A DNA stretch of 64,000 bases. It comes from Humisphaera borealis. Its GTDB lineage: Bacteria; Planctomycetota; Phycisphaerae; Tepidisphaerales; Tepidisphaeraceae. The first letter of the stretch is position 1; each line of letters begins with the position of its first letter. Location of the stretch: contig NZ_CP063458.1 of NCBI RefSeq assembly GCF_015169395.1, positions 1,798,001 through 1,862,000 of the forward strand, read 5' to 3'. Shown here in pieces: positions 32,504-45,936 of the stretch. The notes under the pieces are model-generated. The model saw only the letters and a program-made list of their open reading frames with translations, was not told where the DNA came from and did no database searches. The translations under genes and the position numbers were made by a program.

Positions 32504-32518
32504 GTGTTCCCGAGAGGT
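32504..32518. repeat. attL core
   Basis: GTGTTCCCGAGAGGT, identical to the core at 45,333-45,347. The flanking bases differ on both sides, so the identity block is exactly 15 bp. It marks the left end of the element in former tRNA-Arg 3'-flanking DNA. Confidence 0.88.
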
Positions 32519-32683
32519 ACTGAACATGCAAGCAATTCCCCGGGGAATATTCACTTTGCGGGCGCAAGCGGCGTAACAGGCGGCGCATCTGATGCCGACG
32601 ACGAATTGGACCGCGTGATAGCGGCGTGGTCGCGTCTGTCAGAGGATGCCCGGCGGCGCATCCTGGCGATTGTGTTTGAGTAG
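32504..32683 (+). pseudogene. displaced native 3' end of the integrase gene
   Basis: Read in the integrase frame from the core, this stretch is open for 59 codons and stops at TAG 32681-32683. After VFPRG of the core it continues TEHASNSPGN and ends DDELDRVIAAW then SRLSEDARRRILAIVFE, an amphipathic helix of the kind found at the C-terminus of planctomycete integrases. It has no start of its own. On excision and circularisation it would join codon 424 of the integrase exactly in frame. It is therefore a detached gene part, not a decayed gene. Confidence 0.82.
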
Positions 32684-32794
32684 AATAGTCCACGGGACGG
32701 CGGGCTTGATCACCTGCCGAAAGTCTTGCCCGGTCGTCGTGGTCGTCACCTGCCACGGCACCGGGCGGACCCTCCCGCTACGAAAGGTGACAAC

Positions 32795-33472
32795 ATGGAA
32801 TCATTTCTCGACTTGGCAGTTGCCGTGAGGGACGAGGCGACCGAAGCAGCCCGCAAGACCGACCCCGGTTCTCCCGAACGGATAGCGCAGATTCACCGCA
32901 TTGGGACCATGGTTGACGAGGATATGCGTCGCGCCCTGGCGATGGCACCGCCGCACGTCTACCGATCAGCGGTCATGGACGCGGCTTCAATCGTCCTAAA
33001 GGAACTGGTTGCAACGCAGCGTCATGGCGGGCATGCGTTCATTGTCGCCACCGAGGCGGTAAGCAACGCTGTGAACGTCGCGATGCACCTTCCGCCCCCG
33101 ACGCCGACACCGGCAGCACCCGACGACCTGTCAGGCGGCATCGAGCCCGACCCCGAGGATGGACGCGTTGTCCGCGTGGCTGGGTGCCGCGTCTATCTCG
33201 GCAGCGACACCAACCCCCGCCGGTTGTTCGACACCCTGGCGAAGCAGCCCGGGCGAAAGATTCCCGTTGACGACGCAACCCGAGCCGTTGACGGATTCGA
33301 GACGAGCGAGACGCAAGGCAGCGACCCGGACGAAATCCGCAAGGCACGCCAGCGCGTACACAAAGCCGTTAACAAGATACGCGAGGCGCTCGCCGAACAT
33401 GGCGCGGGCGCTCACCTGGCGTTGAGTCATGAGGACAATTCGTATGCCCTGCTGTGGAGGGCATCGCGATGA
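32795..33472 (+). CDS. Element protein of unknown function
   Basis: A 225-residue protein, first complete gene of the element. Residues 1-115 are helical and acidic, then a Pro-rich linker (PPPTPTPAAPDD, about 114-125) leads to a C-terminal region (about 140-225) ending in a helix-rich QRVHKAVNKIREAL stretch that could be a small winged-helix or DNA-binding domain. The ATG at 32795 follows AAAGG. Its stop overlaps the next gene by ATGA, so the two are translationally coupled. No family recognised. Confidence 0.65.
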   Translation: MESFLDLAVAVRDEATEAARKTDPGSPERIAQIHRIGTMVDEDMRRALAMAPPHVYRSAVMDAASIVLKELVATQRHGGHAFIVATEAVSNAVNVAMHLPPPTPTPAAPDDLSGGIEPDPEDGRVVRVAGCRVYLGSDTNPRRLFDTLAKQPGRKIPVDDATRAVDGFETSETQGSDPDEIRKARQRVHKAVNKIREALAEHGAGAHLALSHEDNSYALLWRASR

Positions 33473-34041
33473 CATACATGTGCGACGTGCTGTCCGAGGC
33501 GGACGCCGAACTGCTGTGGCTGGTCTACAGCGAGAACCTGACCCACGATGAGGTCGCGGTCATGTTCGGCGTCAGTAGGCCGGCGGTGACAAAGAAGGTG
33601 TTGCGGATACAGGAATACCTGAAGGACACGGGCGCTGAGGTCGATTTCAGCCCTTACGCGTTCTGGTTCGAGCTGCCGGACGAGCTGCATACGTTCAAGC
33701 CACATCCATACGAGCGACCCAAGGTCCGGCGGACAAAGCCACCCGAGCCGGCGGGCGAAGTAGACGAGCGGAGACTTTTGCATCTTATATCAACGCGGTG
33801 CCATCCATCGGACCGCGACGATGCAAGGCAGATAGCCGAAATCGCTAGGTTAGAGGGTGACGACCCTTGCCGGGCGGTTGATCGGTTCCGAAAGCGGGCA
33901 AACCGGATACGCCGCACGACGAAGGGGAGCGGTGCCCTAAAGAAGTACGTTGCCGCACAAAGCAGCGAACACACCGGACCAATCGACGGCAGGCGGGGAA
34001 AGAAGACGTGCTGGCAGGCTGGATGCCGAGACGATTCCTGA
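33469..34041 (+). CDS. Sigma-region-4-like HTH protein
   Basis: A 190-residue protein. Residues about 8-45 (ADAELLWLVYSENLTHDEVA, then VMFGVSRPAVTKKVLRIQEY) form a helix-turn-helix like sigma-70 region 4 or phage transcription activators. The rest is charged, with a Lys/Arg-rich C-terminus. GGAGGG seven bases ahead selects the ATG at 33469, which overlaps the previous stop (ATGA). In a satellite this could be the activator of the downstream late genes (inference). Confidence 0.65.
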   Translation: MTYMCDVLSEADAELLWLVYSENLTHDEVAVMFGVSRPAVTKKVLRIQEYLKDTGAEVDFSPYAFWFELPDELHTFKPHPYERPKVRRTKPPEPAGEVDERRLLHLISTRCHPSDRDDARQIAEIARLEGDDPCRAVDRFRKRANRIRRTTKGSGALKKYVAAQSSEHTGPIDGRRGKKTCWQAGCRDDS

Positions 34042-34387
34042 AAAAAGTTGCCGAGAGGGTTACCAAATCACCGACGCCGGTTCCTTTGTATATCGGAGGG
34101 ACGTGGTTTTCTCCGCCGGACAATTATTTTCGAGATTGAGTGATAGTAATTAGGGTTTTGCGCCCTCTTCTATCTATTACGAAGGGAGCACCCGTTCCTA
34201 ATTGGTCCTACTTAGTAGAGGTGCTCGCTTTGTTCTGCGGCGGAAAAGAATCTTTGTGACCGAGTGATAAAAGCAGGGTGCATCCTGTCCTTTAAGGGTG
34301 GATGACCACCCGTTAACTCCCCTTCACAACCCAATGCCGACCCGAGCCCTTCCAAGGGTTCGCGCTTTCCCTTTGCCACCACCGATT
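34042..34387. other. non-coding gap in the element
   Basis: About 346 bases, more AT-rich than the flanking genes. A 7-bp inverted repeat (GAGCACC 34,186-34,192 and GGTGCTC 34,220-34,226) is the only structure I see. It probably holds a promoter for the replication-module genes that follow. Confidence 0.5.
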
Positions 34388-34588
34388 ATGTCTACTCCCC
34401 TTCTCTTACTTGGTGATGTTCGCCGCGAGCTTCAGGCGGACTTCCCAAACGTTGCCGAGCACGTCGTCAAGTACGCGATCAAGTCCCGAGGTATCGAGCC
34501 GGTCCGCCGGTTCGGCACCATGCGAGCCTGGACGCGTCAGCAGTTGCCCGCGATCCGCCGGGCGATCCGGCAAACCGCCGGGAAGTGA
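34388..34588 (+). CDS. Small HTH-like DNA-binding protein
   Basis: A 66-residue basic protein beginning MSTPLLLLGDVRREL. The pattern GDVRREL...VVKYAIKSRGIEPVRRFG resembles the short MerR/excisionase-like winged helix, where the middle segment contacts DNA. The frame is open upstream to 34298, but the ATG at 34388 gives a compact single domain. Probably a recombination directionality factor or regulator of the element; no partner is certain. Confidence 0.5.
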   Translation: MSTPLLLLGDVRRELQADFPNVAEHVVKYAIKSRGIEPVRRFGTMRAWTRQQLPAIRRAIRQTAGK

Positions 34589-34685
34589 ATCCCCAAGAAA
34601 GTCAGAGTCTTACCACCGGAAGGGAAGAACCTTCCGCCTAGTGCTTTTGTAGAGCCGTCGCGTTGACGGTCAAAACGAGGAACCA

Positions 34686-34910
34686 ATGTCAGACCACAAA
34701 ACAGTCTCCGAATGGTGCCGGCATCGCTTCCCCGGGGTTCGCCCGGAAACGATATCGAGCATGTTTTACCGCAGGCAGTTGCCGGGAGCGGATGAAGCTT
34801 GCCCCGTCATCGGCGGGCGACGCCTTATTCCCGAGTCCTATTTGCCAACCCTGGAGCTTGCCCTACGGCGGGCTGGGCATCTTCCACGCCGGGAGGTGAC
34901 CCGTGGTTGA
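34686..34910 (+). CDS. Small HTH-like DNA-binding protein
   Basis: A 74-residue basic protein. The segment TVSEWCRHRFPGVRPETISS followed by MFYRRQLPGADEACPVIGGRRLIPESYL resembles an excisionase/phage-regulator winged helix. GAGGA lies a few bases before the ATG. Its end overlaps the next small DNA-binding gene by eight bases, so the two are made together. Confidence 0.55.
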   Translation: MSDHKTVSEWCRHRFPGVRPETISSMFYRRQLPGADEACPVIGGRRLIPESYLPTLELALRRAGHLPRREVTRG

Positions 34911-35124
34911 TAGCGAAACCATCCTGAAGCGGATGAACACCCTGTTGGAGCAGATCGCCACGGCGACCGCTTCACCCCTTCGGACCGCCGACGAAGCCGC
35001 CGAATACCTGCGCGTGTCACGGCGGACGCTCCACGGCTTGCCGGTTCCGAGGTGCAAGGTGGGCGGTCAGATTCGCTACGACGTGGCGGACCTAAACGAA
35101 TACATCGCGAAATCGAAGGCATGA
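34903..35124 (+). CDS. Excisionase-family (AlpA-like/HTH_17) protein
   Basis: A 73-residue protein with a GTG start preceded by GGGAGG. Residues about 25-70 contain LRTADEAAEYLRVSRRTLHG, VPRCKVGGQIRYDVADLNEYI, the typical HTH_17 / excisionase domain in which an AAEYL...VSRRT helix-turn-helix is followed by a wing ending in RYD..DL..Y. Likely the recombination directionality factor for the integrase (inference), placed far from int at the other end of the element. Confidence 0.72.
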   Translation: MVDSETILKRMNTLLEQIATATASPLRTADEAAEYLRVSRRTLHGLPVPRCKVGGQIRYDVADLNEYIAKSKA

Positions 35125-35182
35125 AAAAACCCGCGCCGGTGGCTGGCTGGCTGTTACCCGGCACGGGCTTAGGAACGAGCGA

Positions 35183-35647
35183 ATGAATCGTAGCACAAAC
35201 AATACAACGATGGCAAACGCAATCGATAGGATTGCATCGGAGCGGCTGAGAGCCGAAGCCGATGTCGTCGGGTCGATGCTGTCCGCCCCGCTACTGGCAA
35301 TTCCCCATATCACCGACGCCGGCGTTGACGGTGCCCTGTTCGATGACGTTGACCTGCGGCTGGTCTTTCTCGCCGGGGTTGTCTGTCACGACGCGAACCG
35401 GTTGACCGGCGACGCCTACGGCGACCGTACCACGGTCCTGTTGTTGGCACGGTCCGCCCTTCGCGGTGCCGGGTTGTGGCACGTCGGATTCCCCGAGTAC
35501 CTGGCGAACCTGGCATTCAGCACGCCGTTCAACGTCTCGGACCTGATCGGACGTTGCGACCGCTTGATTGAAGCAGCAGCACGCTGCAATGAGGCGCGGA
35601 AGCTGTCCCGCCGGCTGGATGAACTTTGCGAAGGGTGGGCAGCGTAA
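35183..35647 (+). CDS. DnaB N-terminal-domain-like replication protein
   Basis: A 154-residue protein. Residues about 20-75 (RLRAEADVVGSMLSAP, DAGVDGALFDDVDLRLVF) match the pattern of the DnaB helicase N-terminal domain (AE..vlG..L..p....F.d..hr.iF). It lacks any ATPase domain. Its stop overlaps the start of the next gene (TAATG), which encodes a RecA-fold ATPase, so the pair looks like a split helicase or a loader-helicase couple. AGGA eight bases upstream supports the ATG at 35183. Confidence 0.6.
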   Translation: MNRSTNNTTMANAIDRIASERLRAEADVVGSMLSAPLLAIPHITDAGVDGALFDDVDLRLVFLAGVVCHDANRLTGDAYGDRTTVLLLARSALRGAGLWHVGFPEYLANLAFSTPFNVSDLIGRCDRLIEAAARCNEARKLSRRLDELCEGWAA

Positions 35648-36873
35648 TGGAGGACACTATCGACGAAGCGAAGGAAGCCCGCGTAGACGAATGGGCGAAC
35701 AGAGACCCGAATGCACCGTGGTCTGTCGAGATGATCGCGGAGGCTCTCAAAGACGCCGTTCGTTATGACGAGTACGGCAACCGCATCTATCGCAAGAAGC
35801 CTACCGAGCCCGCAGACACCATTCGCGCCGTTTCCCTTGGGGAGTTGCTACGTGACCACCCCGAACTGCGGCGACCCGTCATCCACGGCGTGGCGCGTGA
35901 GGGTGAGATTATCAACGTCATCGCCGGGCCGAAGGTCGGAAAGTCGTGGCTGGTCTATGACCTGCTGTTGTCAGTGGCGGCAGGCGTGCCGTGGCTTGCC
36001 CGGTTCACCTGCGAGCGACGCCGGGTTCTGCTGATCGACAACGAATTAGCCGAGCCGACGATTGCCAACCGTATACCGAAGGTCGTCGACGCTAAGGGCA
36101 TGGACCTGTCAGACGTCGCCGGATTCCTGGAAGTGGTGAGCCTGCGGGGCAAGCTAAAGGACATCTTCGCCATCGAGCGATTCCTGGCGACGGTCGAGCC
36201 CGGCACCTATGGGCTGGTCGTCATCGACGCGTTCTATCGCGCCTTGCCAATCGACACCGACGAGAACGCCAATGGTGATATCACGGCGCTCTACAACGTC
36301 GCCGCAGGTATGGCGGAGCGGTTGAAGTGTGCCCTGGTTTTTATTCATCATGCGAGCAAGGGCAACCAATCGGGCAAGGGTGTTACCGACGTTGGCAGTG
36401 GTGCAGGTTCGCAAAGCCGAGCAGCGGACGCCCATATCGTCCTTCGCCCGCATGCCGTTGACGGCGCGGTTGTCATGGAAGCCGTGGTCCGATCCTTCGC
36501 CCCGGTTCAACCCTTGTGCCTGCGGTGGGAGTTTCCCAAGTTCATCCCCGCCGACGACCTTGACCCCTCCGAATTGAAGATGCCGGGACCGAAGCGGAAG
36601 CGGAAAGAGGACACCGGCGACGCCGATCCGAGCGAGACACAAATCGTCTGGACCCCGGCGAAGTTTGCCGAGACGTTCCTAAATGAGGAACCGAAGTCGA
36701 AAGACCAAATCGTAACGGCGGCGGAAGTGGTGGACATCTCCGAACGCAAGGCATTCCGATGGCTCAACGCGGCAGTCGATGCCGGTCTTGCCTACCGCTG
36801 GGAGTTCGCCGGAAAAGGCAAGCCCGTAAAGTTTGCGACCATAGCACAACCAGTAACGAGGGTTACAGAATGA
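35647..36873 (+). CDS. RepA/AAA_25-type hexameric helicase ATPase
   Basis: A 408-residue RecA-fold ATPase. Walker A is AGPKVGKSW (about 94-102), the segment RVLLIDNELAE follows, Walker B is LVVIDAF (about 190-196), and IHHASKG (about 236) with GSGAGSQSRAADAHI complete the RepA / AAA_25 pattern of plasmid and phage hexameric helicases. The N-terminal 75 residues are charged; the last ~100 contain a predicted winged-helix (KSKDQIVTAAEVVDISERKA). It should unwind the element's origin for autonomous replication. It directly follows the DnaB-N-like gene. Confidence 0.82.
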   Translation: MEDTIDEAKEARVDEWANRDPNAPWSVEMIAEALKDAVRYDEYGNRIYRKKPTEPADTIRAVSLGELLRDHPELRRPVIHGVAREGEIINVIAGPKVGKSWLVYDLLLSVAAGVPWLARFTCERRRVLLIDNELAEPTIANRIPKVVDAKGMDLSDVAGFLEVVSLRGKLKDIFAIERFLATVEPGTYGLVVIDAFYRALPIDTDENANGDITALYNVAAGMAERLKCALVFIHHASKGNQSGKGVTDVGSGAGSQSRAADAHIVLRPHAVDGAVVMEAVVRSFAPVQPLCLRWEFPKFIPADDLDPSELKMPGPKRKRKEDTGDADPSETQIVWTPAKFAETFLNEEPKSKDQIVTAAEVVDISERKAFRWLNAAVDAGLAYRWEFAGKGKPVKFATIAQPVTRVTE

Positions 36874-36889
36874 CCCCGAAATCATTTTC

Positions 36890-36960
36890 TCTTACACACA
36901 CACATACCCCCCACACCCCCCAGTGGGACGTGAACGTCCCCTGGGGCGGGGTGTGCGTGA
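36890..36960. promoter_or_regulatory. CA-rich tract and strong stem-loop
   Basis: A CA-rich run at about 36,895-36,905 precedes a long stem-loop at about 36,914-36,957. Its inner arms are GGGACGT/ACGTCCC with a GA loop, continued by CCCCAG/CTGGGG after a one-base bulge. It separates the replication gene from the packaging genes. It may act as terminator, attenuator or packaging/replication site; there is no T-run. Confidence 0.5.
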
Positions 36961-36990
36961 GCGTGAGAGGTTGAGGGAAGGACGACAACC

Positions 36991-37455
36991 ATGACGAACG
37001 ACAAAGACAAAATCACTGGCAGTACGACGGTTGCAGAAACAGTCGTTTGCACCGCGACACGGACACACTGTCGCACCTCCCCCGGTCTGTCCACCTACGA
37101 CCCGTCGCCGATGTTCGAAGTGAGCACCGATTGCATGACAAGTGCGCCGCCTTGTGCGCCGCCTTTGCACGGAATCGCGAACGGCTGCACAGAATCGCAG
37201 GGTGTTCGGTTCCACGATGGAACCTGCGCCCCCTTCATCATCGAACTTAGCGACGGCAATCCCCGGCATGACGTGCCCTTCGTCGTCAGGTTACGCCGCC
37301 TGTTGAAGATGACCCTGCGCACCTACGGCATTCGAGCGTCATGGGCACCGTCGCCCGTGGCTGCAACGCTGGCGAACGATTCGACCGCGACCCCTACGAC
37401 GACACCCCGGAAAAGAAAAACGCGCCAGCGTGCGAATGGCGAGGTGAACGTATGA
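36991..37455 (+). CDS. Element protein of unknown function
   Basis: A 154-residue Thr/Pro/Cys-containing protein starting MTNDKDKITG, with seven cysteines in the first ~80 residues (CTATRTHC, CMTSAPPC, NGC, GTC) and a basic C-terminus (PRKRKTRQR). GGAAGGA lies upstream. Its stop overlaps the small-terminase start by ATGA, so it belongs to the packaging operon. No domain recognised. Confidence 0.5.
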   Translation: MTNDKDKITGSTTVAETVVCTATRTHCRTSPGLSTYDPSPMFEVSTDCMTSAPPCAPPLHGIANGCTESQGVRFHDGTCAPFIIELSDGNPRHDVPFVVRLRRLLKMTLRTYGIRASWAPSPVAATLANDSTATPTTTPRKRKTRQRANGEVNV

Positions 37456-37970
37456 GCACCGGCAACCTAAAACGCGCCATCGGGCAAAAGGAACGATTGG
37501 CGATTCGACAGGAACAAGCCCTGCGGCTTCGCCTGGACGGGCTGTCCCACTCTGAAATCGGCGAACGCCTGGGCATCGACCGGTCACAGATTACCCGCGA
37601 CCTACAGAAGGTCATGAAGGCGACCGCCAAGCGAACGGAAGAGACGGCGGAGCAGTTGCGGAGCATCGAACTACAGCGGCTTGACCTGGGCATTGCCAGC
37701 ATCGCGGACAAGGTGCGAGCCGGCGACCCGAGGGCGCTTGACCTGTGGTTGAGGTATTCGGAGTCCCGTCGTCGGTTGCTGGGTCTGGATCAGCAGCAGC
37801 AGACAACCGCCCTGATCGGTGAGGGTGCCGGGCTGGTGTTCAACATCATCGAAGCACAACGCCCCGCCCGGTTCGTCGAATCGACCGCGACCACGCCCGG
37901 CGACGCAATCGTCGAATCGTTCGCACCCGCCCTGCCAGCACCCACGGAAGGGAGCGCCACCAATGGCTAA
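37452..37970 (+). CDS. Terminase small subunit-like HTH protein
   Basis: A 172-residue protein. Residues about 15-55 (RQEQALRLRLDGLSHSEIGE followed by RLGIDRSQITRDLQKV) form a helix-turn-helix, followed by a long helical segment (about 55-115), the usual architecture of small terminase subunits that recognise the packaging site. GAGGTG five bases ahead supports the ATG at 37452. It overlaps the large terminase gene by eight bases, which strengthens the assignment; sequence alone would allow any HTH regulator. Confidence 0.68.
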   Translation: MSTGNLKRAIGQKERLAIRQEQALRLRLDGLSHSEIGERLGIDRSQITRDLQKVMKATAKRTEETAEQLRSIELQRLDLGIASIADKVRAGDPRALDLWLRYSESRRRLLGLDQQQQTTALIGEGAGLVFNIIEAQRPARFVESTATTPGDAIVESFAPALPAPTEGSATNG

Positions 37971-39285
37971 GACTCGCAAACCGACCGCATCGACCATCGA
38001 ACTGTTGCCGAAGCAATACGCGTTCGTCACCAGCACAGCCCGCGAGGTGCTCTACAGCGGCGCGTTCGGTGCCGGCAAGAGCCGTGCGACCTGCGTGAAG
38101 TTGGCGACCCGTGCTCAACGCCCCGGCGCTAGGGAAGCCCTTGTCCGTAAGCACCTGGTCACCTTGAAGGGAACCACCCTCAAGACCCTGCTGGAACCCG
38201 AGGGCAACTTACCGCCCGTACTGCCGCCGGGAAGCTACAGCCACAACCAATCGGCGAAAACCATCCGCATCGTCGGCGGGGGCGAAATCGTCTACTTCGG
38301 GCTCGACGACGTGGCGAAGGTCGGAAGCTACAACCTGTCAGGCGTCGGCGTGGATCAGGCGGAGGAGTTGTCCGAGAACGATTGGACGGCGCTTCGTGGT
38401 CGCATCCGGTTGAACGTCGATGGCGTGCCAAACTCCCTTTACGGGGCGTGCAACCCGTCCGGACCCGAACACTTCCTGGCGGTCCGCTTCGGGCTCAACG
38501 GTCGCAGCAAGGCGGCGGACGGATGCCACGCCATCGCCACGAAGAGCGCCGACAACTGGCACTTGCCGGAGTCCTACCTGCGCGACCTGCAGACATACAC
38601 CGGCGTCGCTAAGCGGCGGTATGTCGATGGCGAATGGTGCGGCTCGGACGGTCTGGTCTACGACACCTTCGACCCTGCCATTCACGTTCGCGAACGCCGC
38701 GACGTTTGGCAACGCGTCATCGTCGGCGGCGATCAAGGATTTTCGAACCCGACCGCGATGGTAGTCATCGCCGAAGCCGAGGACGGCACCCTGCACCTGC
38801 TGGCGGAGTTCTACGCCACGGGCAAGGTAAGCAGCGACGTGATAGCCGAGGCGGAGCGGTTGAAGTCTGAATATGGGGTCACCGAGTTCGTGTTTGACCC
38901 TGCGGCGGCAGTGCTGCGGGAAGAGATGGCGCGGGCGGGGTTGTCGGTCATCGCGGGCGACAACGACGTCAACGGCGGGATTACATCCTGCCAACGTCGG
39001 TTCGCCGTGGACGGCAGCGGCAAGCCTGGGCTGACGATTAGCCCGGCGTGCGTGAACGTCATCAAAGAACTTGGCATGTACGAATGGCAACCCGGCGAAA
39101 AGGACAAGCCGGTCAAGAAACACGACCACGCCCTGGACGCCTTGCGATACGGCATCCGGCGCTTGGACGGCGGTAACCAAATCGACGTGCGAGTCATCAA
39201 CGGCGGCAACCGTAGTGAACCCCACCGACCGACGAACGACGAACACATGTGGCAGACATTCCAGACGAACAGGGGGCACCGATGA
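37963..39285 (+). CDS. Terminase large subunit
   Basis: A 440-residue phage DNA-packaging motor protein. The ATPase half has Walker A GAFGAGKSR (residues 33-41), and Walker B GVGVDQAEEL (about 126-135). The C-terminal RNase H-like nuclease half has the GGDQGFSNPTAMVVI strand with the first acidic residue (about 256), the VFDPAAA strand, and a closing HDHALDALRYGI carrying the last aspartate. Both halves are complete, so packaging and cleavage activity can be expected. It would need a portal, which is not recognisable in the element; it may therefore use a helper phage's procapsid (inference). Confidence 0.88.
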   Translation: MAKTRKPTASTIELLPKQYAFVTSTAREVLYSGAFGAGKSRATCVKLATRAQRPGAREALVRKHLVTLKGTTLKTLLEPEGNLPPVLPPGSYSHNQSAKTIRIVGGGEIVYFGLDDVAKVGSYNLSGVGVDQAEELSENDWTALRGRIRLNVDGVPNSLYGACNPSGPEHFLAVRFGLNGRSKAADGCHAIATKSADNWHLPESYLRDLQTYTGVAKRRYVDGEWCGSDGLVYDTFDPAIHVRERRDVWQRVIVGGDQGFSNPTAMVVIAEAEDGTLHLLAEFYATGKVSSDVIAEAERLKSEYGVTEFVFDPAAAVLREEMARAGLSVIAGDNDVNGGITSCQRRFAVDGSGKPGLTISPACVNVIKELGMYEWQPGEKDKPVKKHDHALDALRYGIRRLDGGNQIDVRVINGGNRSEPHRPTNDEHMWQTFQTNRGHR

Positions 39286-39932
39286 CCCTGGACGAAAACC
39301 TAGACACCCCAAACCCCGGCAGTAGCCGGAAGGATGTTTCTATGCAGTTTCTTACGACCCTGCGTGAGCAGGAACAGCAGGCGGCAACCAAAGCCGCAGA
39401 GGCAGAGGCAAAGCGTCAAGCCGACATCCACGGCAAGCGCCAGCGCTACGGACAACTCATTCGTCAAGCCATCATCGACGGTGACCTGGACGAAGTGACC
39501 GCCCCGAAGTTCCATCGCCTTGTGGCGGAGCTTGGCATTGATGCCGCCACGGTTGAAAGCCACGTTGCCGCCATTCGTCGCGCTGACGAGTTGGAGGGCG
39601 CTGCACAGAGCGTCGAAGCGCTGGAGCAAGCCCGGGAGGGCGTCAAAGTGAAGATCACTGAATTGCGTATCGCGCATCGGGACTACGAACGCGGCGAGCG
39701 TGTCCGGTTGCGGGATCACACCTGGGACGGCACGGCAAGCGTCGGCGTCATCGACGCGACCGAGGTCGCAATCGGTCAATCGAACGTCAAGACGATTCGC
39801 GAGATCAGCAGTCTCGACAGTTTGAGTGCCAACCTGTCAGAGCAGCTGCGGACCGCCCGCGCCGCCATCGACGAACGCAACACGTTGTTAAGCCGGTTCC
39901 CCTTCCTCTTCCCGGAAGGCGGTGCCCTGTGA
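39282..39932 (+). CDS. Coiled-coil element protein
   Basis: A 216-residue protein, mostly helical and charged, with predicted coiled coils at about 25-65 (REQEQQAATKAAEAEAKR) and 170-205. The ATG at 39282 overlaps the terminase stop (ATGA). Position after the large terminase is where a portal or scaffold would sit in a phage, but the protein is far too short for a portal and shows no portal motif. Function unknown. Confidence 0.55.
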   Translation: MTLDENLDTPNPGSSRKDVSMQFLTTLREQEQQAATKAAEAEAKRQADIHGKRQRYGQLIRQAIIDGDLDEVTAPKFHRLVAELGIDAATVESHVAAIRRADELEGAAQSVEALEQAREGVKVKITELRIAHRDYERGERVRLRDHTWDGTASVGVIDATEVAIGQSNVKTIREISSLDSLSANLSEQLRTARAAIDERNTLLSRFPFLFPEGGAL

Positions 39933-40204
39933 AGGAAACAACAGCGCACACATTCGTCATCCACGGCGAGGTCGCCGGCGACGGCGGCACGGCGGAGCAC
40001 GTCAACGCGGCAAAGGCTGTCGGTCGACGGTTCGGCATCGCGGTGGAATCCAACCACGTTGGCGGGATCACCTTTACGGACCCCGCTTCACCAGTCACCC
40101 GTTCAATTCAAACAACGAAGGGCATCATGAACAAGGGTATCGGCTACGGGTTCAGCGACATCGGCACGCAGATCGTTCGAGCATGGCAAGGAGGCGCACA
40201 ATGA
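39929..40204 (+). CDS. Small element protein of unknown function
   Basis: A 91-residue protein from a GTG start that overlaps the preceding stop (GTGA), with GGAAGG upstream. It is mixed alpha/beta with no recognised domain. Its own stop overlaps the next gene by ATGA, so it lies within a translationally coupled chain. Confidence 0.5.
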   Translation: MKETTAHTFVIHGEVAGDGGTAEHVNAAKAVGRRFGIAVESNHVGGITFTDPASPVTRSIQTTKGIMNKGIGYGFSDIGTQIVRAWQGGAQ

Positions 40205-40737
40205 GTACATCAACCGCAATTCACGAAGCCGGGCACGCAGTCGTCGCGGCAGTTTTAGGCTGCGACATTGAAGCGGTCGTCGGTGTTCCCTGCACCGTCG
40301 ATGGCGAACCAGCGGCAGGCGTTTGCGTTCACTCTGGTACGTCGCCGTTCAACGGTGCTGTCATCGGTGTTGCCGGTCCGATGGCAGAGGCAATGGCGGG
40401 ATACCCTCCGATGCCAAGCCAAGAGGACGTTGCACCGATTACGGACGAGAACGCGGCGAGGGCGATTGCCGAAGCAAAGCGGATTCTGACCGCCAACTGG
40501 AAAGAGGTAACGACGCTGGCGGAGGTGCTCGACGAGTGCGGGACTGCTGGCAACGCGGCAGTGCAACAGATTCGCCGGGCATTCCGTCGTCGTCGCGTCA
40601 AGTTGGTGTTGCCGCCGGCACCCCGCCCGATGGGGGCACACGACTACACCGGCGCGCCGATTCACACCAACTACCCGTTCGACCAGTCGCGGCACAAGCT
40701 GCATCAGAAGGTGTGGACAAAGCATTTCATTCACTAA
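40201..40737 (+). CDS. Stand-alone FtsH/M41-like metallopeptidase domain
   Basis: A 178-residue protein starting MSTSTAIHEAGHAVVAAVLG. HEAGHAVVA is the zinc-binding HExxH motif in the exact form used by FtsH (M41) peptidases, and the following GVAGPMAEAMAG resembles the G..AE segment of that family. There is no AAA domain and no membrane segment. The third zinc ligand (an Asp or Glu) is not obvious. GGAGG precedes the ATG, which overlaps the previous stop. It may be a protease acting on a phage or host protein, for example in maturation or interference (inference). Confidence 0.6.
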   Translation: MSTSTAIHEAGHAVVAAVLGCDIEAVVGVPCTVDGEPAAGVCVHSGTSPFNGAVIGVAGPMAEAMAGYPPMPSQEDVAPITDENAARAIAEAKRILTANWKEVTTLAEVLDECGTAGNAAVQQIRRAFRRRRVKLVLPPAPRPMGAHDYTGAPIHTNYPFDQSRHKLHQKVWTKHFIH

Positions 40738-40749
40738 CGCAGAGGCACC

Positions 40750-40905
40750 ATGAACAAGCCGATTGCAATCAACCCCCGAAACCCCAAGCCGGCAGATTAC
40801 CTGTCCGGCGGAAGGCTTCCATCGTCGCCCCCGTCAGGGAACGCGGCGAACGTCAAGCCCGACGCCCCCAAACCGGCGGACTACATCAACCCCCGAAAGG
40901 AATAG
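40750..40905 (+). CDS. 51-residue protein with internal PKPADY repeat
   Basis: A short frame MNKPIAINPRNPKPADYLSG... ending NPRKE, with the PKPADY unit twice and AGAGG before the ATG. The next gene starts one base after its stop. Low-complexity, possibly a peptide tag or linker-like protein. Real expression is uncertain. Confidence 0.4.
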   Translation: MNKPIAINPRNPKPADYLSGGRLPSSPPSGNAANVKPDAPKPADYINPRKE

Positions 40906-40906
40906 A

Positions 40907-41614
40907 ATGGAAACCCCAAAGCAGGTTAGAGAATTTGCAGACGGTGACCCCGGCGTTGTCCCGCCCCGCCGGCTCAACGAGATCATTCGGGCAGCCAACG
41001 CACTGAACTATGAAGTTCAGTCACTCAAGACCCCGCCCGACGTTCCACAAACCCCGCCGATCATGTCGCACCTGTTCTACCCGCAGGAGGACGGCGGACG
41101 CGGCGAGGTATACAAAGGCGTGGCGGTTGCCGTTACCTGGAACGAGTTCAGCGCCGACAGTGGCGGGGATACCACGCTGGCGGACATCGGGCAAATCACG
41201 TCGTCCCCTGGCGTGTGGGCACGGAAGGCAATCGGCATCAACATTGCCGCCATTGGCAAGACGACCCACAACGTACCGAAGAACGCCAAGCCGTACCCGG
41301 CGACCCTTCGGAGCGTGAACGCTGACGGCACGCTGGTATTGATGTTCGACCCCGGCAGCCCGGCGGACCTGTTCCGGGTTCAGTTGTCGCAGACCGGCGG
41401 CAGTGACGGCACCGGCACCACGGCACCGTCATATACCTACACCGTCACCCGCAACGGGGTTCAACTTGCCACCGGCGAGAGTCCCGACGTGGGGCGGGCG
41501 AATGGTAGCTACACGGCGGCAACCCTGGGCATCGGCTACTACGACAGCGACGGCGAGTTCCAATTGCTGTACGCGTTCGAAGTTCCAAACACCTACGAAT
41601 GCGCGGAGGCTTAA
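40907..41614 (+). CDS. Element protein of unknown function (tail-like?)
   Basis: A 235-residue protein. The N-terminus contains DGDPGVVPPRRLNEIIRAAN, then a Pro-rich linker; the rest is beta-rich with Gly/Thr/Ser turns (QTGGSDGTGTTAPSYTYTVT) and an aromatic C-terminus. The look is that of a virion or fibre-like protein, but I recognise no family. AAGGA precedes the ATG. It is immediately followed by the next gene with no gap. Confidence 0.5.
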   Translation: METPKQVREFADGDPGVVPPRRLNEIIRAANALNYEVQSLKTPPDVPQTPPIMSHLFYPQEDGGRGEVYKGVAVAVTWNEFSADSGGDTTLADIGQITSSPGVWARKAIGINIAAIGKTTHNVPKNAKPYPATLRSVNADGTLVLMFDPGSPADLFRVQLSQTGGSDGTGTTAPSYTYTVTRNGVQLATGESPDVGRANGSYTAATLGIGYYDSDGEFQLLYAFEVPNTYECAEA

Positions 41615-42085
41615 ATGGGACTAGGCAAAACCCAACTAGATACCGATGGCAAGCGCCGGCTGCGGTCGGACGGTTCGCGGATTGTCGCCGAAGCTGCGCC
41701 GTGCTGTTGTGACACGCCTTGCGCGACGGAGTGGCCGACGTGCGCGGACGACCTGCCGACAGCGTTCACCATGTCCGGGAACACGTTGGAAGTAGGACAG
41801 CCGGACATCCCCTGGACCGCAGCGCTAAACCGAACCGCCCCATGTGAATTCGCGGGCACCATCGACGGCGTTTATTCCGACGGGTTCAGTCACTTCACTT
41901 TCGGCGTTTCTGTCTTTCAGGACTTTCTGCCCAATGGTTGTATTGCCTGGCGGTGGAGCGGATTCCCCGGCGGGGACACACTCCAAACGGTGAACGACCC
42001 GTCAACGCCCGCCGGAGCATACAACGACAACCTGGACGGGGCGGGAAGCGTTTACGGTGGAGTTACCGGGCTGGTGATTTCATGA
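41615..42085 (+). CDS. Cys-rich element protein of unknown function
   Basis: A 156-residue protein with a cysteine cluster near residue 30 (APCCCDTPCATEWPTC) followed by a beta-rich segment with aromatic residues. The start directly abuts the previous stop and the end overlaps the next gene by ATGA. It may be a structural or binding protein; no family recognised. Confidence 0.5.
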   Translation: MGLGKTQLDTDGKRRLRSDGSRIVAEAAPCCCDTPCATEWPTCADDLPTAFTMSGNTLEVGQPDIPWTAALNRTAPCEFAGTIDGVYSDGFSHFTFGVSVFQDFLPNGCIAWRWSGFPGGDTLQTVNDPSTPAGAYNDNLDGAGSVYGGVTGLVIS

Positions 42086-42321
42086 CCTGCAAACACTGGA
42101 CGCCCTGCCAAGTTCGCAACGGGGGTTGTTGTGCCCTTGGGTTGTACGGCGGGAAGCCGAGCCTGGGCACGTGCAAGCGGTGCGACAATCGCGAGCCGTT
42201 GCCCGAGGGGTTAAGGCAGGACATCCCCGACGACTTCGACCCGGCAATAGAGGTGCGCCGGATGCGGGCTGGCGGTTGCTGTGGGAAGCCCGGTCAATTG
42301 CAACACGGTGTTGCAACATGA
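42082..42321 (+). CDS. Small Cys-rich (zinc-ribbon-like) protein
   Basis: A 79-residue protein with cysteines in the pattern CKHWTPC, GGCC, CKRC and a final GGCCG, suggesting one or two metal-binding knuckles. It is coupled to the upstream gene (ATGA). Function unknown. Confidence 0.5.
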   Translation: MTCKHWTPCQVRNGGCCALGLYGGKPSLGTCKRCDNREPLPEGLRQDIPDDFDPAIEVRRMRAGGCCGKPGQLQHGVAT

Positions 42322-42400
42322 AATGTTTGTCCACCGTGGCCAAACATTCCGGCAACCGTTGCCGAAACCGCAAGATTCCATTTGCGCACCTGTGGCGCAA

Positions 42401-42601
42401 TCACTTGAGCAGATCGCGAGCCTTGACGCCTAAGGCTTTGGCGATGGCTTCGAGCGTGGCAATGGTCGGGTTGGCAATCCTCCCCGATTCGAGTTGATAC
42501 CACTTCTGGCGGTTCGGAAGTCCTGCCAGTTTCGCGGCTTCATCCTGCGTCAGCCCGCGTTTCTCGCGTAGTGCCTTTACCTTGTCGAGGTCGATACCCA
42601 T
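42401..42601 (-). CDS. XRE/Cro-CI-type repressor
   Basis: A 66-residue protein that is essentially one HTH_3 domain: KVKALREKRGLTQDEAAKLA, GLPNRQKWYQLESGR and ATLEAIAKALGV. It is the only minus-strand gene of the element, divergent from the gene at 42,699 across a ~97-bp region with repeated half-sites. The arrangement is that of a lysogeny-type switch. It should repress its own and the divergent promoter (inference). Confidence 0.8.
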   Translation of the reverse strand: MGIDLDKVKALREKRGLTQDEAAKLAGLPNRQKWYQLESGRIANPTIATLEAIAKALGVKARDLLK

Positions 42602-42608
42602 GAGCGGA

Positions 42609-42697
42609 TTGTATCCTATAACGGATTCCTTACAACCGGTAAGACGCGGAGAAATCCGATTAACGCCCGTTGCAATTGAATCCGAATAAGGATACAA
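42609..42697. promoter_or_regulatory. candidate operators of the XRE switch
   Basis: TTGTATCCT at 42,609-42,617 and its reverse complement AGGATACAA at 42,689-42,697 flank the divergent region close to the two starts; a related half GGATTCCTTACAA lies at 42,623-42,635. Placement over both promoters suggests repressor binding sites. Confidence 0.5.
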
Positions 42698-42698
42698 C

Positions 42699-42953
42699 AT
42701 GGGCATGAACTTCCAGACCATCCAGACCGAGAAGGAATCGACGACGTTGGAAATCATGGGCGCTGCGTGGGCGCTCACCCTGACACCCGAACGCCTGCGG
42801 ATGCGCGTGGATTCGGGCAAGTGGCAGACGGTTGACTACATCGTCGATCCTTCAGACCGGAGCATTGTGTTGAGTTCGTGGAATGGACCCGAGCGGGCCA
42901 GCGAACTACTGCGCGAGGCGCTCCAGCAGGCAGTGGATGTGATGAAGAACTAA
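42699..42953 (+). CDS. Small element protein, paralogue of the 43,534 gene
   Basis: An 84-residue protein, first gene right of the repressor switch. The segment WALTLTPERLRMRVDSG...YIVDPSDRSIVLSSW and ERASELLREALQQA has the same layout as the 43,534 product (WTLRF...DFTIDPDDRSLV...ERVARCVAEGIAVA), so the two look like diverged paralogues with a beta-sheet plus helix fold. AAGGA is six bases upstream, inside an operator-like repeat. No function known. Confidence 0.55.
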   Translation: MGMNFQTIQTEKESTTLEIMGAAWALTLTPERLRMRVDSGKWQTVDYIVDPSDRSIVLSSWNGPERASELLREALQQAVDVMKN

Positions 42954-43017
42954 AAGGACCGCGACCCGCCGGCACCCTTGGCAGGAACGACCGGCGAGCC
43001 GCAATCGGAGAAGCATC

Positions 43018-43515
43018 ATGAGCAAGGCAAAGCAAGTACGCAACGGGCACGCAATCGCGGAGATTCTTCCCATGGCGCGTCCATCGGGTTCCGACGGGTT
43101 CCGCCGGTTCGCCGACGGCGAAATGCTCGACACCGTGGGGCTGGCTCAATTCCCGCCCTTCGTGTCTCAGCGGATGGACATCGCCGCCGCCCTGGCGGAG
43201 TTGGCGGACCAAATGGGCGACGACGTACACCCGTGCTCGCAACTCATGCGGCAGATCGCGGCGGACCTGTGGGCGGAATCAGGGGCGGAGTACCTGGACG
43301 CGGACGCGGAGTTGGCGTCGCCCACGGTGGGTGACCGTGGCAGCGATGACGTGATATTCAATCTCCACATCCCCGGGAAGGGGCATTGGAATTGCCGCTA
43401 CATGGACAACGGCTGCGGGATGGTCCACATCGACCGCAAGGGGGCGAGCGCTTTCGTGAACGATGAAGTGACCGTCAAGGAACTGCTGGAATGGCTGACG
43501 GCGGAAGCCAAGTAA
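43018..43515 (+). CDS. Element protein of unknown function
   Basis: A 165-residue protein, mixed alpha/beta, with an acidic centre (EYLDADAELASP) and a region GHWNCRYMDNGCGMVHIDRKG. CGGAG precedes the ATG. It lies between the two paralogous small genes, in the operon controlled from the repressor switch. No domain recognised. Confidence 0.5.
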   Translation: MSKAKQVRNGHAIAEILPMARPSGSDGFRRFADGEMLDTVGLAQFPPFVSQRMDIAAALAELADQMGDDVHPCSQLMRQIAADLWAESGAEYLDADAELASPTVGDRGSDDVIFNLHIPGKGHWNCRYMDNGCGMVHIDRKGASAFVNDEVTVKELLEWLTAEAK

Positions 43516-43533
43516 CCAGAAGGGAGCACGACC

Positions 43534-43749
43534 ATGGATAACAGACACACCATCAAAATCCTGGGCGAGGACTGGACGTTGCGGTTTGTGTACCTGCCGA
43601 TGCGCTACAACGGCAAGTACGTCGATTTCACCATTGACCCCGACGACCGATCGTTGGTCGCGTGTGCACTTGGCGGCGTTGAACGTGTCGCGCGGTGCGT
43701 AGCTGAGGGCATCGCCGTGGCTAGTTCTCAGATGCTCGACATGAAGTAA
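43534..43749 (+). CDS. Small element protein, paralogue of the 42,699 gene
   Basis: A 71-residue protein with GEDWTLRFVYLP, DFTIDPDDRSLV and a C-terminal helix VERVARCVAEGI. Same pattern as the 42,699 product. GGGAG precedes the ATG. Function unknown. Confidence 0.5.
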   Translation: MDNRHTIKILGEDWTLRFVYLPMRYNGKYVDFTIDPDDRSLVACALGGVERVARCVAEGIAVASSQMLDMK

Positions 43750-43786
43750 CTCGGCACGCCCTGCGGAAACGTGGGGCGGACGCCTT

Positions 43787-44023
43787 ATGACCAATCGATT
43801 GAACGAAGCAGACGCGGTGCATGAAGAGGGCAAGGCAGCGGCAATGGCGCACCTGTGGCTACTGCCGATGACCGAAGCCGACCGCGAATTGGCTATCGAG
43901 TTCGGAGCGAGCCTATACCGGCAGGTTCGCCCCCACCTGCTGAACCACGCCGGGCTGACCGTGTCCGCCGTCTTTGCCGCCGCCCTGGCGTATGGCGAAG
44001 CGGTGCAGGCGAACGAAATCTAA
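43787..44023 (+). CDS. Small helical element protein
   Basis: A 78-residue, mainly helical protein (MTNRLNEADAVHEEGKAAAM...). No domain recognised. It is the last gene before the integrase, 37 bases upstream of it. Confidence 0.45.
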   Translation: MTNRLNEADAVHEEGKAAAMAHLWLLPMTEADRELAIEFGASLYRQVRPHLLNHAGLTVSAVFAAALAYGEAVQANEI

Positions 44024-44060
44024 CGCCGGGCTGATCCCCTGGCAGAATCGAAGGTGACCT

Positions 44061-45551
44061 ATGGCAAGTCTGATTGATGACGGCGGCAACCTGTGGCGCG
44101 TGCAGTACACCCCGGCTGACGGCGGCAAGCGCCAAACGCTCCGCACGGGCAACATGAAGCCACGCGAGGCGCAGCGGTTCGCGGACAAGGTAGAAGCCCT
44201 GGTATCCGCCAAGCGACAGGGGCGACCGATCGACGATTCGACCGCCGCTTGGGTCGATGAGTTGACGGGCACCCTGCGTCAACGCCTGGAAGCCAAAGGA
44301 TTGGTGAAGCCGCAGGCGAAGCCCGGCGAGATGAAGCTAGGACCGGCGCTCGACAAGTGGATTGAGACGATGAGCGTCAAGCCCGCTAGCCTCATCTTCT
44401 ACGGGCAAGTTCGGCGCGACCTGCTGGCGTTCTTCGGGAAGGATCGCGACATCGCCACCATCGGACCGGAGCAGGCAGACGAGTGGCGGACGTGGTACAC
44501 ACAAAAGACAATCGGGAGGACCGGACGCCCGTTGTCGGTCGCGACCATCAGCAGGCGCGTCGTGGCTTGCCGCCATTTCTTTAAGACCCTTGTCCGGTGG
44601 AAGATGGTCATCGAGAACCCCTTCGCCGAGGTCAAGACCGGTTCACAGAAGAACAAGTCCCGCGCCTACTTCATTACCCGCGAAATGACGGACAAGGTAT
44701 TTGCCGAATGCCCCGATGCCGAGTGGCGTCTGATCGTTGCCCTAAGCCGCTACGGCGGGCTGCGGTGCCCTTCCGAGCACGTCTTACTGCGGTGGCAGGA
44801 TATCAATTGGGAGAAGGGGCGGATTCTGATTCACTCCCCGAAAACCGAACAGTACGCCGGACAGGAAACCCGTTGGTTGCCGCTCTTCCCTGAGTTGAAG
44901 CCCTTCCTGATGGAGTGCTTCGAGCAGGCGGCAGAAGGGGCGGAATACGTCATCGTGAAGCGCAGGAGCGCCAAGGTTAACCTGCGGACGCAGCTTCAGC
45001 GGATCATCACCCGAGCCGGGCTGACACCGTGGCCGCGTCTGTTCCACAACCTGCGGGCGACCCGCCAGACGGAACTAACCGAGGATTTCCCCTCGCACGT
45101 TGTCAGCGAATGGCTTGGCAACTCGGAAGACGTGGCGGCAGACCATTATCTGCAGGTCACCGATCAGCACTTCGAACGAGCGGCGGCAGCACCAGCGCAG
45201 GCGGCGCATAATGCGGCGCAGCGAGACTTGGAAACGGTGCAAAAGGCTGTGCAAGTCGCGACACCCACAAACGCAAAAACCACTGTGTTACCAGTGGTTG
45301 CGCCAGTCTGCACAAGTTCGCAGTCTGTTAAGGTGTTCCCGAGAGGTCTCGAACCTCTAACCTTCGGCTTCGGAGGCCGACGCTCTATCCAATTGAGCTA
45401 CGAGAACGTTCACGAGGCAAGGTGCCTACCGCCAGTTCGAAATGATATCGCACAATCGCGTTGGCGTCCATTCTGCGCCGCAGCATGGCAACCGCCATCC
45501 AAGGCGACCGCCATCAACCCAGCGCACGCCGTGCCGCCGCCGGGAGAGTAA
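44061..45551 (+). CDS. int: Tyrosine integrase with att site inside its gene
   Basis: A phage-type tyrosine recombinase. The N-terminal arm and SAM-like core-binding domain occupy about 75-190; the catalytic domain holds Arg235 (GGLRCPSE), His329-Arg332 (FHNLRATRQ), His346/Trp351 (HVVSEWLGN) and nucleophile Tyr363 (ADHYLQV), so it should be active. The 15-bp att core begins exactly at codon 425. In the integrated state the frame runs on through antisense tRNA-Arg and host DNA, ending in 72 foreign residues and overlapping the neighbouring host regulator gene. In the circular form codon 424 would join 59 native codons now at 32,504-32,683. AAGGTGA precedes the ATG. Confidence 0.92.
   Translation: MASLIDDGGNLWRVQYTPADGGKRQTLRTGNMKPREAQRFADKVEALVSAKRQGRPIDDSTAAWVDELTGTLRQRLEAKGLVKPQAKPGEMKLGPALDKWIETMSVKPASLIFYGQVRRDLLAFFGKDRDIATIGPEQADEWRTWYTQKTIGRTGRPLSVATISRRVVACRHFFKTLVRWKMVIENPFAEVKTGSQKNKSRAYFITREMTDKVFAECPDAEWRLIVALSRYGGLRCPSEHVLLRWQDINWEKGRILIHSPKTEQYAGQETRWLPLFPELKPFLMECFEQAAEGAEYVIVKRRSAKVNLRTQLQRIITRAGLTPWPRLFHNLRATRQTELTEDFPSHVVSEWLGNSEDVAADHYLQVTDQHFERAAAAPAQAAHNAAQRDLETVQKAVQVATPTNAKTTVLPVVAPVCTSSQSVKVFPRGLEPLTFGFGGRRSIQLSYENVHEARCLPPVRNDIAQSRWRPFCAAAWQPPSKATAINPAHAVPPPGE
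45333..45347. repeat. attR core
   Basis: GTGTTCCCGAGAGGT, identical to attL. It covers the last 14 bases of the tRNA-Arg (3' acceptor arm and part of the T stem) plus one flanking base, and codons 425-429 of the integrase frame on the other strand. Confidence 0.88.
45334..45407 (-). tRNA. tRNA-Arg (anticodon CCG)
   Basis: Full cloverleaf on the minus strand: acceptor GTTCTCG / CGGGAAC (one G-T pair), D arm GCTC/GAGC, anticodon arm TCGGC-CTCCGAA-GCCGA with anticodon CCG, and T arm AGAGG-TTCGAGA-CCTCT. The discriminator is A and CCA is not encoded. The 3' end is the integration target of the element, and the gene remains intact after integration. Confidence 0.95.
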
Positions 45552-45936
45552 TGGGTTCCTTCCGGCGTTGGGTCGCCTGCATGGCGTCGGCGACGACGCC
45601 TTCCAGGACGGCAATGTATTCCAGAAAACGCTCGCGGCCCGATTCGCTAAGCAGCACCTGCGTGTGCGGGCGATTGTTCCGCGTCGATTTGACCACATCC
45701 ACGAACCCCTGCTCCTGCAACAGCTGAAGCTGTCGGCTCAGGTTGCCGTCGGTCAGGTGGCACAACTGCTTGAGGTCACTGAAACTCAGCCCCTCGGTGT
45801 TGGCCGCGAGGGACGAGAGAATGCTGAGCCTGGCGCGCTCATGGATGACGCGCTCCAGTCCGTCGTAAGCGAAACGCCCGCGCGACGCATCGGCTGACGC
45901 CTTGGAAGATTCGGGTTGTTGATTACGCTCGGCCAT
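45514..45936 (-). CDS. Winged-helix transcriptional regulator
   Basis: A 140-residue protein. Residues about 25-105 form a MarR/ArsR-like winged helix: RARLSILSSLAANTEGLSFS, DLKQLCHLTDGNLSRQLQLL and an EQGFVDVVKSTRNNRPHTQV wing typical of the HTH_27 family. A helical C-terminal tail probably dimerises. GGAG seven bases ahead supports the start. It follows a polytopic membrane protein gene by 96 bases on the same strand, a common pairing in which the regulator controls the membrane protein. Confidence 0.82.
   Translation of the reverse strand: MAERNQQPESSKASADASRGRFAYDGLERVIHERARLSILSSLAANTEGLSFSDLKQLCHLTDGNLSRQLQLLQEQGFVDVVKSTRNNRPHTQVLLSESGRERFLEYIAVLEGVVADAMQATQRRKEPITLPAAARRALG

Follow-up and report, generated by a model that had tools for sequence, protein, structure and literature searches.

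An attachment site within the integrase gene of a Humisphaera borealis element and of related elements of Planctomycetota

The window analysed here, a stretch of 64,000 nucleotides from Humisphaera borealis, holds an integrated element whose attachment site lies inside the coding sequence of its own tyrosine integrase. Integration of this element almost certainly exchanges the C-terminus of the enzyme, 59 residues being lost and 72 gained, and the lost segment (hereafter the tail) is found at the opposite end of the element. An arrangement of this kind is already known from the phage Mx8; what is new here is a phylum-wide family of integrases with a conserved tail.

According to the explanation proposed here, attP, made of a tRNA-derived core and putative arm-type sites, would be embedded in the 3' part of the integrase gene. 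In the excised circle, the gene would read across attP and encode a full-length integrase with a small, conserved helical tail at its end. On recombination of attP with the 3' end of a tRNA-Arg gene, the sequence coding for the tail would come to lie 12.8 kb away, at the opposite end of the element. The prophage integrase would then end in residues read from the antisense tRNA (here also from host DNA), its catalytic domain being untouched. If this is true, the enzyme is rewritten by the very DNA rearrangement that it performs.

The element of the window and the two forms of its integrase

Two exact copies of the 15-bp core GTGTTCCCGAGAGGT, both on the + strand, are located at 32504..32518 (distal copy) and 45333..45347 (integrase-side copy). 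No other copy occurs elsewhere in the window, even with one mismatch allowed, and none is expected in shuffled sequences. The integrase-side copy corresponds to the 3' end of a tRNA-Arg(ccg) gene (45332..45407, - strand, ARAGORN), the integration target, which is restored by the element. Since (45333-44061)/3 = 424, the first base of this copy opens codon 425 of the integrase, and the copy covers codons 425-429. In the integrated state, the integrase ORF (44061..45551, + strand, 496 aa) passes through the tRNA-Arg gene. The replacement C-terminus continues beyond the core for 67 further codons and a stop (45348..45551, + strand), read from the antisense tRNA and from host DNA, and the last 38 bases of the ORF overlap the 3' end of a host regulator ORF (45514..45936, - strand).

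The distal core is followed, in the same frame, by the detached tail (32519..32683, + strand; 54 codons and a stop, or 59 codons with the five of the core), which is joined to the integrase only in the circular form. Joining the element ends in silico gives an integrase of 483 aa. As both copies of the core are identical, this joined protein does not depend on the point of strand exchange within the core. When the host flanks are joined in the same way, the acceptor stem of the resulting tRNA-Arg is intact. In a genome of the same genus, tRNA-Arg(ccg) comes next to the same regulator and no integrase follows; this locus is apparently an empty integration site. The earlier note on this sequence had claimed the att site at codon 425, the continuation of the integrated frame through antisense tRNA and host DNA into the regulator, the in-frame distal tail and the lengths of 483 and 496 residues; the exact repeat, the coordinates, the translation and the joining of the ends bear out all of these.

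Codons 1-424 (44061..45332, + strand) encode an arm-binding N domain, the core-binding and tyrosine-recombinase catalytic domains and the start of a flexible linker. The protein matches Phage_integrase of Pfam (PF00589, E 1.2e-10, above the Pfam cut-off) and the integrases of PHROG (E 5.3e-36), and it shows the R..K..HxxR..H/W..Y pattern of the tyrosine recombinase phage integrases within this domain. Residues R235, K261, R332 and Y363 are invariant in the family alignment. Furthermore, the fold of a full-length relative, the L155 protein, matches lambda Int best outside its linker and tail. All the catalytic residues, including Tyr363, which had been placed upstream of the switch by the earlier note, precede codon 425 and hence are the same in both forms, each of which may, as that note supposed, be active.

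Detached and uninterrupted tails among Planctomycetota

The arrangement is repeated in the genome of H. borealis itself, where paralogous integrases run into tRNA-Leu, tRNA-Tyr and tRNA-Met genes. All four such integrases, that of the window and three others (A, B and D), have detached tails. For the latter three, a copy of the core and an in-frame tail are found far upstream on the same strand, at 39.4 kb (A), 82.7 kb (B) and 28.4 kb (D). When the 59-residue tail of the window was used as sole query, about ten genomes showed a tail match located 5-40 kb upstream of an integrase match, on the same contig and the same strand.

The family was sampled by taking up to 40 kb of DNA upstream of 54 integrases, some chosen for a known tail match and most for their long contigs. 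In 42 of the 54, an antisense tRNA lies at or before the end of the ORF, which ends inside or beyond the tRNA. The distal att copy (13-36 bp) was located for 33 elements, two from the window's genome and 31 from other genomes. Among the repeats that cover the 3' end of the tRNA, the longest was taken (the second longest for G116), the pairs of the tRNA-less G033 and G127b being picked among several alternatives. The upstream DNA taken for some of the integrases showed no distal copy. In 28 of the 33 elements, the replacement acquired on integration is of 5-24 residues, and in the five others, which include the window element, of 67-86 residues; the typical exchange is of about 70 residues for about 12.

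Following the distal core, the integrase frame stays open for at least 41 codons in 33/33 elements, while the two other frames reach 40 codons in 18/66 cases (Fisher P 1.5e-13). Thus, although long accidental ORFs do occur in GC-rich DNA, the idea that the repeat is real and the frame beyond it accidental has a negligible probability: besides this comparison of frames, which refutes it, the tails are homologous to each other and naturally contiguous ORFs exist (see below). In at least six elements, the tRNA is read in another frame, giving DSN in place of GxEP; the tails of these elements are still in the integrase frame, which indicates that the tail frame tracks the integrase and not the tRNA. 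The earlier note had named two observations that would weigh against its reading, homologous integrases stopping by codon 424 and frames failing to join. Most close homologues extend beyond the core, and the frames join in every one of the 33 elements. Some of the detached tails, not all, begin with ATG or GTG and have host DNA upstream.

A profile of the reconstructed proteins found matches in 42 virus contigs and in 80 genome loci, the latter under names of Planctomycetota apart from a few labelled only "bacterium". The scan of viruses with the window protein alone had given no match, and tblastn against cultured phages and plasmids gave weak matches to the core domain only. Of the chromosomal ORFs, 77 are complete, and 68 of these stop within an antisense tRNA or continue through it; the family as a whole targets at least 13 tRNA types.

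Several virus contigs carry an integrase, core and tail in one uninterrupted ORF, as detected with a tail HMM built from detached tails only. This is the case for L155 (= L154; 504 aa, tail-HMM E 1.6e-15), L166 (505 aa, E 4e-10) and L157 (508 aa, E 5e-7), L181 being a weak fourth case (E 0.023). A tRNA gene at the core is absent from all four, and the whole records of L157 and L166 each contain a single exact match to the core motif. Judging from their sequences, these uninterrupted viral ORFs are the product predicted from joining the element ends, found in nature. The contigs are uncultivated assemblies classed as linear, and would represent the excised form.

Two other loci show unusual combinations of the same parts. 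In the orphan stretch L274:18688-18915 (G000:C1, near 526.7 kb), a single frame runs from the final part of an integrase linker through a tRNA-like core into a tail, with neither integrase body nor tRNA; this stretch would be what is left of a full-length gene or of an attP. In L289 (G140:C136), a frame with a long antisense-tRNA-like segment (RPTGFEPVTCGLGNRRPDS) is followed by the conserved tail, and this locus is possibly a rearranged att site.

In an unrooted tree of 66 sequences, the arrangement is found over most of the branches. The virus integrases L171-L176, which end about 20-30 residues after the Tyr without a tail, are nested among tailed relatives. As the root is not fixed, it is no more than a suggestion that the arrangement dates far back in the family and is open to loss. 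The L171-L176 clade has apparently lost the integrase-embedded attP, and the tail is thus dispensable in some relatives.

Conservation of the tail as protein and as DNA

When 24 tails are aligned on an invariant Trp, they share a C-terminal helix block with the consensus DLARVVAAWPDLPPAIRAGILALV (DDELDRVIAAWSRLSEDARRRILAIV in the detached tail of the window, within 32519..32683, + strand). Mean identity in this block is 0.46/0.60/0.37 at codon positions 1/2/3, and it falls to 0.27 over all codon positions just after the stop in the same alignment, which points to selection on the protein. Besides the Trp, a Leu is near-invariant. The GGAxSGA block, upstream of the helix block, behaves differently: its identities of 0.72/0.76/0.70 are alike at all codon positions, which argues for selection on the DNA. 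The idea that all the conservation of the tail is at the protein level is therefore partly rejected.

The GGAxSGA block coincides with an 18-bp direct repeat, approximately GGCGGCGCAAAATGCGGCGCA, found once before the core (mostly by 115-158 bp) and once after it (mostly by 37-57 bp). The mean best match, out of 18, is 16.4 for direct copies versus 12.9 for inverted ones, 13.4 in the host flank and 12.8 in element DNA 1 kb further. The repeats GCGGCGCAWAATGCGGCG look like arm-type integrase sites. In the window, direct-repeat analysis places the P-side copy, GCGGCGCATAATGCGGCG, within the integrase coding sequence (45201..45218, + strand) and the P'-side copy, GCGGCGTAACAGGCGGCG, within the tail coding sequence (32568..32585, + strand); the two agree at 14/18 positions. 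As these repeats flank the core in coding sequence, attP with both its putative arms is coding.

These data bear on another explanation, in which attP sits in the integrase gene only because this keeps the enzyme and its site together in a compact module, the tail and its loss having no regulatory role. The overlap of the GGAxSGA block with the P' arm repeat, which makes part of the conservation a matter of DNA, and the varying length and class of the tails agree with such a by-product. However, the helix block, with its invariant Trp and near-invariant Leu, is conserved as a protein would be, and the open frame of at least 41 codons has been retained in all 33 elements. This by-product explanation is possible and in our view rather unlikely, and the tail very probably is, on the pattern of codon-position identities, a selected protein module.

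Constraint on the tail is nevertheless moderate, since in the closest pair (G028a and G054a) the catalytic regions are nearly identical and the tails visibly less alike. The tails of G008, G109a, G116 and G180, compared with those of the other elements, reveal at least two helix classes (AWPxLPxxIRxxIxAMV and LPLSDxEKAEAVRRLL) carried by related integrase bodies. This suggests, from sequence comparison, an exchange of tails between elements.

The helical nature of the tail, proposed by the earlier note, is supported by an AlphaFold2 model of the full-length L155 protein, in which the tail (residues 457-493) forms three short helices with pLDDT of 70-79. Residues 382-456, which include the core, have a pLDDT near 30. 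In this model, the core would encode part of a disordered linker preceding a small helical tail.

Known systems and the possible role of the exchange

The closest precedent is the Myxococcus xanthus phage Mx8, as presented in the passages that PMC6070905 and PMC4701971 devote to it (citing Tojo 1996; Magrini 1999). According to these passages, attP of Mx8 lies within the tyrosine integrase gene int, and integration replaces a C-terminus of 112 residues by one of 13 residues, the altered form being less active. Mx8 as described there and the planctomycete family are alike in having attP in the 3' part of int, a replaced C-terminus and an intact catalytic part. Here also, the core is part of the integrase coding sequence, beyond the codon of the catalytic Tyr, and a long C-terminus encoded by the element is replaced by one read from the target. 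Mx8 Int even has a GLEP motif, like that of the antisense tRNA here, followed by about 110 residues. However, it is only remotely related to the planctomycete integrases (hhalign probability 19%), with no BLAST match to the family below E 0.03, and its C-terminal extension gave no match to the planctomycete tail HMM. A descent from the Mx8 integrase lineage is thus unsupported. Whereas the Mx8 type is known from single phages, the planctomycete family is large and has a common tail, arm sites and many tRNA targets.

Other integrases change with the integration state. Streptococcal ICEs integrated in rumA have their att site in the integrase gene, and the C-termini of the excised and integrated forms differ (PMC4701971). 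Unlike the planctomycete elements, they encode a serine integrase and have another target, which is not a tRNA gene. According to PMC4701971, such self-rewriting C-termini are known from "very few integrative elements". With reference to Mx8 and SSV, Islander makes provision for integrases reading across attP (PMC4383910), and a review considers recombinases that disrupt their own gene as exclusively archaeal (PMC8371274). A literature search, which covered few subscription journals, retrieved no paper on an integrase-embedded attP in planctomycetes.

In the archaeal SSV-type "suicidal" integrases, the att site also lies in the integrase gene and integration partitions this gene (PMC8371274). 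By the same logic, the prophage form would be inactive here and excision would need a full-length integrase supplied by another element; integration does part coding sequence from the gene, and several related elements of this genome could provide help in trans. In the SSV type, however, integration cuts off the catalytic portion and inactivates the gene, whereas in the planctomycete family only a C-terminal tail is exchanged: the att site does not part the catalytic domain from the N-terminal part, and all the catalytic residues remain promoter-proximal. Furthermore, tail-less relatives exist and the altered integrase of Mx8, according to the passages cited above, is less active, not dead. 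An inactive prophage enzyme is therefore improbable.

The earlier note had compared the exchange with the immunity of mycobacteriophages. The attP of the mycobacteriophage BPs is part of the repressor gene, and the longer viral repressor carries a C-terminal degradation tag that integration removes (PMC4557955). The likeness holds for an attP in coding sequence and for a protein C-terminus changed by integration (shortened in BPs). It does not go further, as the gene of BPs encodes a repressor and that of the planctomycete elements an integrase, for which Mx8 is the better parallel. It is very improbable that integration stabilises the prophage integrase by removing such a tag, although the logic would be the same: the last four residues of the 33 tails have no common signal, and conservation sits in the internal helix block.

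We favour an action of the tail in the circular, integrating form, where it could for example aid synapsis or the binding of a partner. Its loss would lower the activity of the prophage enzyme and bias the element towards staying integrated, as in Mx8. This role in the circle is suggested by protein-level selection on a module joined to the integrase only in the circle, by a catalytic domain that is intact in both states and by the Mx8 precedent. Taken as a whole (attP in int, exchange of the tail, tail serving the circular form), this explanation is probably correct. Control of directionality or stability as the purpose of the tail deserves as much credit as doubt, and the swap may, as the earlier note proposed, serve as a sensor of the integration state. 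A strong version of attenuation by tail loss is weakened, as far as sequences can tell, by the divergence of tails between close relatives and by the existence of tail-less ones. The opinion that the integrase family of Planctomycetota is a two-state enzyme, with a conserved helical tail, placed after a linker whose sequence holds attP and its arm sites, present only in the circle and setting the direction of the reaction, can be held or doubted with equal reason.

A self-rewriting C-terminus is the usual state of this large bacterial family, which therefore offers many natural replicates for asking how the C-terminal tail of an integrase controls integration versus excision. In addition, many planctomycete integrases are annotated with a C-terminus that is read from an antisense tRNA in the integrated state, and the elements are easy to delimit since the displaced tail pinpoints their far end.

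The 12.8 kb between the cores in the window (32519..45332) encode, besides the integrase, a large terminase subunit (37819-39285), an AAA_25 helicase/primase-like protein and an HTH_17 protein. Among the element proteins scanned, none was recognised as a capsid, portal or tail protein, and the element is perhaps a phage satellite or a decayed prophage. The small HTH_17 protein (34903-35124) is a candidate directionality factor; it lies 9 kb from the integrase, whereas the excisionase gene of Mx8, uoi, adjoins int. Beside the element, the region 24711-30056 (- strand) encodes a very long repetitive autotransporter-like protein of 1781 aa with a PEP-CTERM-like end.
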